From Planktothricoides sp. SR001 (GTDB taxonomy: Bacteria; Cyanobacteriota; Cyanobacteriia; Cyanobacteriales; Laspinemataceae), in the NCBI RefSeq assembly GCF_001276715.1, contig NZ_LIUQ01000022.1, positions 1 through 64,000 of the forward strand: a stretch of DNA of 64,000 bases, in the 5' to 3' direction. Shown here piece after piece: positions 50,610-63,453 of the stretch. Under the pieces are notes generated by a model, which worked only from the letters and a program-made list of their open reading frames with translations, was not told where the DNA came from and did not search any database. Each line of letters opens with the position of its first letter. Positions within the stretch are counted from its first letter, which is position 1. A program made the translations under genes and the position numbers.

Positions 50610-50639
50610 TGTAGGGGCGAATGGCCATTCGCCCCTACA
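50610..50639. repeat. 30-bp perfect palindrome (TAGGGGCGAATGG family)
   Basis: TGTAGGGGCGAATGG is followed directly by its reverse complement. A partial copy (CTGTAGGGGCG) precedes it near 50584. The family also appears at 60447-60474, at 60481-60510 (diverged) and inside the HdrB-like gene at 61758-61787. Confidence 0.85.
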
Positions 50640-60339: not shown

Positions 60340-60631
60340 GGTCTAGGGTGTGGGGCCGCCATCGGTGCAGGGTGTGGGGGAAAGAAAGGGTGTGGGGCTG
60401 CCATCGGTGCAGGGTGTGGGGGGGGGAAAGTGAAAAGTGAAAAGTGGTAGGGGCGAATGGCCATTCGCCCGTACAAAAGTCGTAGGGGCGACGAGCGCAT
60501 TCGCCCGTACAAAAGAAATATCACTATTCACAATTCACTATTCAACATTCACTATTCACTCTTCACTATTCACTCTTCACTCTTCCCTACACCCTACACC
60601 CTACACCGATGGCGGCCCTACACCCTAGACC
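60340..60631. mobile_element. MITE-like element with 41-bp inverted ends
   Basis: The 41 bases at 60340-60380 (GGTCTAGGGTGTGGGG...) are matched, with a few mismatches, by the complement of 60591-60631. Inside are a second GGTGTGGGGCTGCCATCGG copy, two TAGGGGCGA palindromes (60447-60474 and 60481-60510) and a TTCACTA heptad array (60523-60585). At 292 bp with no transposase, it is a composite of dispersed repeats between glmS and psaC. Confidence 0.6.
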
Positions 60632-60736: not shown

Positions 60737-61318
<582 letters not shown>

Positions 61319-62242
61319 CTAGAAGCCTAGCTTGTCCAAAACTGACCGGGTGGAAACCACATGACGGTCTAAGCCTAATTGTTTTGGTTCAATTCCTACC
61401 GCCAGTCCGACCAATTGCGGCAAATGTAATACGGGCAAATCTAAGGTCTGTCCGATCGCCTTAGCCACTTCTGGTTGACGGGAGTCTAGGTTGAGATGAC
61501 ACAAAGGACAAGGAGTGACGATACAATCAGCGCCTTTTTCCAAGGCTTCTAGCAGATGAGTCCCGGCCATTTTAAAAGATTTTTCCGGGGCATAGCTGGA
61601 AATTGGCCAGCCACAGCATTGAATTCGGCCTCGGTAATAAATAGGTTCAGCCCCGATCGCTCGAAACACATTTTCCATAGATTCCGGTGCATAAGGATCG
61701 TCATAGGGCAGGGTTTTTTGTGCCCGCAGGAGATAGCAGCCGTAGAAAGCGGCACATCGTAGGGGCGAACGGCCGTTCGCCCCTACGAGCGATCGCTTGA
61801 CTCGTTTTTGTAATTCTTCGAGTCCGTAATCTGTGACTAAAGCCCAGAGTAGATGCTTGACTTCTGTAGTGCCTTGATAGGGGGCACAGCCTTCCTTAGC
61901 TAGTAAACCGTTAATTTTTTCTACATAAGCGGGGTCTGTACTCTGAAATTCTTTCAGTCGTTCGTCTACATGACCGATTACCCCTTGACAAGTGCTGCAA
62001 TGAGTCAATAGGGGCAGTTTAAGTTGCTCGGCTAAAGCGATGTTGCGGGCATTGACCGTATCTTCGAGCAACCGAGAATCTTCTTTAAAGGTGCCAGAAC
62101 CGCAGCAAGAAGCTTTTTTTAATTCAATTAGTTCAATACCGAGGGCTTCGGTCAGTGCGGCAGTAGACTGATAAAGCTCTCGGGCTGCCCCTTGGGAAAC
62201 GCAGCCGGGAAAATAGGCATATTTCAAGGTTGGAGATGGCAT
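61319..62242 (-). CDS. HdrB-like CCG-domain iron-sulfur protein
   Basis: A 307-residue protein of the heterodisulfide reductase subunit B/GlpC CCG family. Two Cys-rich CCG domains are seen: the first with PGC and ASCCGSGTF plus CSTCQGV, the second with [19 protein letters not shown] and CPLCHLN. Such subunits bind [4Fe-4S] clusters and act in redox complexes; in cyanobacteria the partner is uncertain (succinate dehydrogenase or another oxidoreductase). A 30-bp perfect palindrome is inserted in frame between the domains and adds the residues [11 protein letters not shown]. The frame is not broken. Confidence 0.85.
61758..61787 (-). repeat. In-frame 30-bp palindrome inside the HdrB-like gene
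   Basis: CGTAGGGGCGAACGG is followed directly by its exact reverse complement. On the coding strand it reads [10 protein letters not shown], just before the CAAFYG strand of the second CCG domain. The same palindrome, with AT for CG at the centre, is intergenic at 50610-50639. Confidence 0.9.
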
Positions 62243-62657: not shown

Positions 62658-62724
62658 CCACTTGGCGCCAGTTGACGCCACTTGACGCCACTTGACGCCA
62701 CTTGACGCCACTTGACGCCACTTG
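62658..62724. repeat. 10-bp tandem repeat (TTGACGCCAC)
   Basis: About six and a half units of CACTTGACGC, the first slightly diverged (CACTTGGCGC, CAGTTGACGC), leading directly into the 35-bp array. Confidence 0.88.
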
Positions 62725-62725
62725 C

Positions 62726-62992
62726 TCTACTTGGGGAGACCCCAAGACCGCAGTGGCTTCTTCACTTGGGGAGACCCCAAGACCGCAGTGGCTTCTCTAC
62801 TTGGGGAGACCCCAAGACCGCACTGGCTTCTTCACTTGGGGAGACCCCAAGACCCGTTCATGGTTCGCCAGTTGTTCATGGGGGAAACCCCCAAGACCAC
62901 ACTGGCTCACCGCAGTGCCTTCTCTACTTGGGGAGACCCCAAGACCGCAGTGGCTTCTCTACTTGGGGAGACCCCAAGACTGCAGTGGCTTC
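62726..62992. repeat. 35-bp hairpin-containing tandem array
   Basis: Units of 35 bp start at 62726, 62761, 62796, 62831 (incomplete), 62923 and 62958. Each has the perfect stem CTTGGGGAGACCCCAAG and the tail ACCGCAGTGGCTTC. The break at 62856-62922 holds a divergent hairpin TGGGGGAAACCCCCA. There are no variable spacers, so it is not a CRISPR array. It lies about 460 bp upstream of acpP. Confidence 0.9.
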
Positions 62993-63453
62993 TGAGGATC
63001 ATCTAATAGGGCTGACGAGAGTGAGTCTGTGAAATTTTTTCCCTATTTGAGAAAGGGCATTGGGACAGTGTGTCCGCAATGCTAAAATCTCAAAGCCTTG
63101 ATTTGTAAATGCCTCAGTCAGTCCTAGTCGGGAACAGTCATGCCGGTGCTGCCACCGGACACTTACTTATAAATGCGGGTACAGCAACCCAAGACAGACT
63201 TCGGCGGGATAGAAACCGGGTTTCTACCCTTGATTTCTCGTCATCGAGCCGAGATTTTTCCAAGAAACCCGGTTTCTGACCGAAGCGGTCATCACCCTAA
63301 CTTTTTGGGTGAATGAAGCGTTGGTGAGTAAATTTATGGCCGATATGAGCGATTGGTTAAGGCAAAATCCTTTGCGACTTGATGAAAATGAATCAATGCA
63401 AAGGTACGGATTTAATTTATTATAACTGCGGCACGCAAAGAGGAACCCAGCTA
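62993..63453. other. Upstream region of acpP
   Basis: No gene is seen. Two AAACCGGGTTTCT motifs lie at about 63209-63223 and 63264-63278, the last of the dispersed family. The acpP promoter should be within 63290-63440; AGAGGAA at 63438-63444 is its ribosome binding site. Confidence 0.55.

Follow-up and report, generated by a model that had tools for sequence, protein, structure and literature searches.

An HdrB-like gene contains a 28-bp palindromic unit

The window analysed here, a stretch of 64,000 nucleotides, comes from the draft genome of Planktothricoides sp. SR001 (G000; 7.07 Mb in 165 contigs) and carries a gene for an HdrB-like iron-sulfur protein (hdrB; Table 1), beside genes that we take to be psaC and glmS; together with the many HIP1 sites given below, these neighbours mark the DNA as cyanobacterial. 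Its product matches the NCBIfam HdrB and MFR_anch_SdhE profiles below cut-off, and a structure model (built from 20 sequences; pLDDT 86, pTM 0.87) compares with solved HdrB chains, such as 5odc_B of the methanogen heterodisulfide reductase at a TM of 0.85. Other repeats occur on both sides of the gene. A 20-bp unit, CTATTCCCCATTCCCGCGAA, is found four times in tandem between hdrB and psaC (61217-61292), and upstream of hdrB (62660-63000) a tandem array of ACTTGACGCC units gives way to repeated CTTGGGGAGACCCCAAGACCGCAGTGGCTT units.

The initial annotation placed a perfect 30-bp palindrome at 61758-61787, in frame between the two CCG domains of the protein. The palindrome is indeed there, in an open reading frame that is intact, and pairing reaches even 32 bp, though the unit that is repeated elsewhere is 28 bp long. 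This boundary was drawn from 82 places in a 774-kb sample of copy contexts, skewed towards copy-bearing regions: the outer G/C of the unit is kept on 146 of 164 sides, and conservation decays beyond it. The extra base pairs outside the unit in hdrB pair by chance. A HIP1 site at 61789 adjoins the unit but lies outside it; HIP1, whose unit is the octamer GCGATCGC (89 in the window), is thus a neighbour of the element and not its identity.

In the structure model, the inserted residues fall in a coil (148-161) ahead of strand 162-165, the first strand of the second CCG domain. All residues that are invariant in 19 relatives, the CCG cysteines among them, are kept in the HdrB-like protein, and the longer protein probably still works.

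Table 1. Positions of the features discussed (window coordinates unless a contig is given)
Feature	Position	Strand	Basis or remark
HdrB-like / CCG-domain iron-sulfur protein gene, 307 aa	61319..62242	-	ORF; two Pfam CCG stretches
Ten codons in place of four ancestral ones (SGLK-like; S-G-L-K/R)	61757..61786	-	Net +18 bp, +6 aa
28-bp double-foot REP unit, GTAGGGGCGAACGGCCGTTCGCCCCTAC	61759..61786	.	Boundaries from 82 sampled copies
Full perfect palindrome, 32 bp	61757..61788	.	Unit plus two flanking base pairs
Intergenic copy, TGGCCA-centred sub-type	50611..50638	.	Palindrome reading
Intergenic copy, one outer position unpaired, GTAGGGGCGAATGGCCATTCGCCCGTAC	60447..60474	.	Imperfect copy of the palindrome family
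RAYT gene L263	G000:C5:19557-20147	-	Exact 28-mer in frame in linker

The unit belongs to a dispersed family of hairpins

The unit begins with GTAG, which pairs with CTAC at its 3' end. As single-stranded DNA it folds at -13.4 kcal/mol (z=-5.1) into a hairpin with a stem of 12 bp and a loop of 4 nt. Its arms covary among copies: 46 position pairs have changed on both sides and are still complementary, 33 have changed on one side only and 7 are non-complementary, counts that take in shared ancestry and are not independent events. One reading frame of the unit contains TAG, and the other two encode VGANGRSPL and RGERPFAPT. Perfect 28-bp palindromes occur twice in the window, where the base composition would give about 0.0003, one centred in the HdrB-like gene and the other at 50.6 kb. 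The latter had been taken for the identical element. It is intergenic and of the same family, but it belongs to a different sub-type, with a TGGCCA rather than a CGGCCG centre.

Throughout G000, 142 places lie within 3 mismatches of TAGGGGCGAACGGCCGTTCGCCCCTA (a reversed control gave 0), and 162 lie within 2 mismatches when either centre is allowed. The inner 26 bp of the unit in hdrB recur without change at 8 further places in G000. TGGCCA-centred units make up 47 of the 82 sampled copies and CGGCCG-centred units 15. The TGGCCA sub-type, the majority of copies in G000, often sits within larger composite repeats, and in these it may spread by other means. The family is present in 23 of the 79 genomes searched, G000 included. 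A literature search with the letters of the palindrome returned no relevant paper among the matches listed.

Several copies lie within other genes. In G000 the unit is in frame in dnaG (VEANGLSPLL), rsmE (RGEQPFAPT frame), a DnaJ-TPR gene, a DUF2887 gene and a RAYT gene, and it truncates a tnpB gene. The sister genome G001 also has the copies in dnaG, rsmE and the DnaJ-TPR gene, the first two with point changes; between the two genomes the DnaG proteins are 95% and the RsmE proteins 92% identical. In two relatives, G045 and G067, the 28-mer is in frame in several genes, one of which we read as mutS2-like, the other names likewise being our own reading of the sequence. In this gene (L338:1999 in G067, L363:1999 in G045) the 28-mer stands immediately ahead of the LVLLDEVGAGTDP motif, a position at which an insertion should be harmful. 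A 317-aa open reading frame of unknown family in G000 (L055:4607-5406) holds four copies, and the states of G001 differ at the same sites. The proposal that the repeat family enters coding DNA and creates peptide segments is thus borne out by in-frame copies in several unrelated genes of G000 and its relatives.

The palindrome is associated with one group of RAYT genes

The Y1_Tnp genes first found in G000 by Pfam have no REP within 1.5 kb. The cognate RAYT, missed in that search, was recognised among the intragenic matches of the palindrome. In this gene (L263) and in the RAYT genes of G051 and G073 (L313, L314), the linker that follows the HuH motif includes the exact 28-mer in frame. The G000 gene therefore holds the unit internally rather than as close flanks, whereas the RAYT of G067 (L316) has exact copies on both sides, at -111 and +20. 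Among the 37 RAYTs of a tree, these four alone carry this palindrome, and they form one group (the fork of all four has support 91/51, that of the three with an inner copy 100/99). Other RAYT clades go with different GTAG..CTAC palindromes of 28-29 bp, which have a TTCGCGAA core or GTAGAGACG arms. A GTAG palindrome lies within 300 bp of 9 of 29 RAYT genes, compared with 3 of 109 HdrB genes (Fisher p=4e-5).

The motifs of the G000 RAYT read NHFH, WQ and YVQNNH; the published set is NH[IFV]H, WQ and YIxNNP, from which the Y motif here departs. L263 is 84-86% identical to the RAYTs of G051 and G073, although these genomes belong to different families, which suggests horizontal transfer. Copy number does not simply track the presence of a palindrome-bearing RAYT. 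For example, G001 and G056 hold 24 and 29 copies and neither matches the RAYT query, while G051 has the RAYT, yet only 4 copies. In G073, the 26 sampled copies lie mostly within composite repeats. We infer that the RAYT cuts and moves the 28-bp element; the copy numbers, the Y motif of the G000 gene and the predominance of the TGGCCA sub-type in G000 speak against this.

The empty site in relatives reveals replacement of target DNA

The initial annotation suggested looking for the empty site in relatives and held that GANGRSPL-type residues had been added to the protein. The 109 other HdrB orthologs all have a spacing of 26 residues from DYG to FYGC, against 32 here, and none of them has an equivalent segment (with the gene studied here, the set comprises 30 loci from a genome search and 80 named loci of GTDB contigs; DYG reads DFG in one). 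In G001, of the same genus (assembly 95% complete), we found distant paralogs only and no HdrB ortholog. The extra segment is thus real, but the net gain is 6 residues, not the 8-10 that had been proposed. With both flanks aligned, the net gain at the DNA level is 18 bp, and a clean insertion of 30 bp and 10 residues is rejected. As the unit is 28 bp long, about 10 bp of ancestral hdrB must be gone. Had the 28 bp, a length not divisible by 3, been inserted cleanly, the frame would be broken; the loss of about 10 bp leaves a gain of 18, and hence an intact frame with six additional residues.

Other sites resolved against relatives behave similarly. In tnpB, the 28-bp unit stands in place of exactly 14 bp: three intact tnpB copies of G001 read AAAGCCCAAG[GT]AAA at the site of the unit, and the flanks match on both sides. 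The net gain of 14 bp causes a frameshift and a truncated open reading frame, so selection for the frame did not shape this site. The other net gains are 14 bp (L059:9819), 15 bp (L055:4607) and 21 bp (L087:17053), and an in-frame site in G067 has a net gain of 21 bp relative to G045. None of the sites resolved against relatives gained 28 bp. Two further sites in the open reading frame of unknown family, L055:4871 and L055:5379, were not counted, as they show larger differences, with a second repeat or other changes. G045 and G067 agree at most comparable sites, and apart from the one in-frame site those that they do not share differ over longer stretches. Target-site duplication is 0 bp in 40 of 48 contexts. 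The direction of change is well supported for hdrB and tnpB, so that two of the replacements are polarised; at the remaining resolved sites the change was presumably also a gain of the unit.

We consider it highly probable that a double-foot REP, likely mobilised by a RAYT, integrated into hdrB, replacing about 10 bp, with the frame kept and six residues added. The element would be a non-autonomous 28-bp double-foot REP that folds into a hairpin bounded by GTAG (5') and CTAC (3'), and its likely mobiliser a RAYT of TnpAREP subclass 2.4, an IS200-like HuH nuclease. One copy would have integrated at the coil that separates the two CCG domains, taking the place of about 10 bp of target, with integration and target loss presumably a single event; the frame would thereby survive and the protein grow by 6 residues.

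The most serious alternative needs no transposase: the palindrome would have been taken over from another member of the family by template switching or gene conversion as the DNA was replicated. This would account for replacement rather than insertion. At four places (L052:9779, L055:5028, L058:9512 and L087:11321), G001 agrees in flanks and outer arms and differs in the core, as if cores had been exchanged at occupied sites, and at the first three of these the difference in core between the sister species speaks for such copying. We nevertheless regard it as unlikely, since the tnpB site has no homology between flanks and element and since the type of palindrome goes with the RAYT clade. Taken together, the data fit either hairpin replacement or template switching between copies, and not simple cut-and-join insertion.

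A two-step history, in which a clean 28-bp insertion broke the frame of hdrB and an adjacent 10-bp deletion then restored it under selection, draws some plausibility from the conserved length of HdrB. However, the sequence missing from tnpB is exactly 14 bp and adjoins the element at both ends, with no restoration of the frame, and the other resolved sites likewise gained less than 28 bp, which makes this history distinctly improbable. It is also very improbable that the segment is functional in HdrB, as a selected peptide or an mRNA hairpin, instead of a neutral passenger: the frame is kept and the hairpin is stable, but the segment is present only in G000 among 110 orthologs and the same peptide occurs in unrelated proteins. 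An assembly artefact, conceivable in a draft of 165 contigs, can practically be dismissed, as the dnaG, rsmE and DnaJ-TPR copies recur in the independent assembly of G001, two of them with single-base differences.

Relation to known palindromic elements

The small dispersed repeats of Nostoc, which Elhai et al. (2008; cited in PMC3116915) reportedly treated, are said to be very small mobile repeats of cyanobacteria. According to Quentin et al. 2018 (PMC6006769), the double-foot REPs of TnpAREP subclass 2.4 form hairpins that start with GT[AG]G (5') and finish with C[TC]AC (3'), are abundant in Cyanobacteria, and flank tnpAREP genes or sit inside them, between the HuH and Y motifs, with the frame unbroken. 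The G000 unit resembles them in its paired GTAG/CTAC ends and its many dispersed copies (142); likewise, it flanks the RAYT in G067 and is in frame inside L263, L313 and L314. The hdrB copy differs from these cases in that its host is an unrelated redox gene, and comparison with relatives shows a target loss of 7-14 bp, for which we found no description in the text consulted.

The GTAG REPs of Di Nocera et al. 2013 (PMC3733652) are dispersed 20-40 bp palindromes linked to RAYTs. Those that lie within genes often fall in genes of DNA replication and repair, and the family described here likewise has copies in such genes (dnaG, mutS2). A canonical GTAG REP is nevertheless ruled out, since its tag is unpaired and at one end only, whereas here GTAG pairs with CTAC. 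Rickettsia palindromic elements (RPE), as cited in PMC3733652, are in-frame palindromic insertions that add peptide segments, and RPE-4 and RPE-6 are CGTC repeats without association to a transposase gene. RPEs, from a different phylum, share with the G000 palindrome the in-frame addition of peptide. Thus, the class of mobiliser and the in-frame habit are known, in-frame REP insertions in genes (PMC3733652) and REPs inside RAYT genes (PMC6006769) having been published already.

Implications for REP transposition and protein evolution

The least explained point is the target loss. Such loss would not be expected of single-strand transposition of the IS200/IS605 type. In the literature we searched, with most subscription papers outside its reach, we found no description of a 7-14 bp target loss, and its occurrence at each resolved site, in a few cases, is possibly the new part. 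We suggest tentatively, as an idea that is plausible but short of probable, that RAYT-driven integration of double-foot REPs could be replacement rather than insertion, in which a 28-bp hairpin takes the place of a target of about 7-14 bp, with no duplication and with a core that can be exchanged while the arms stay. If true, this mode would explain how a 28-bp unit enters genes in frame.

To our knowledge, there is hardly any direct observation of REP transposition, and little is known of what it requires of its target. With well over 100 double-foot copies in a genome that also has a cognate RAYT, and with a sister species at about 95% identity, sites before and after integration can be read here base by base. 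A mobile palindrome of 28 bases, whose kind is tied to a known bacterial transposase family, lengthened a cyanobacterial iron-sulfur protein by six residues. This shows a mobile element adding peptide segments to housekeeping proteins, namely HdrB, DnaG and RsmE in this organism and MutS2 in its relatives.
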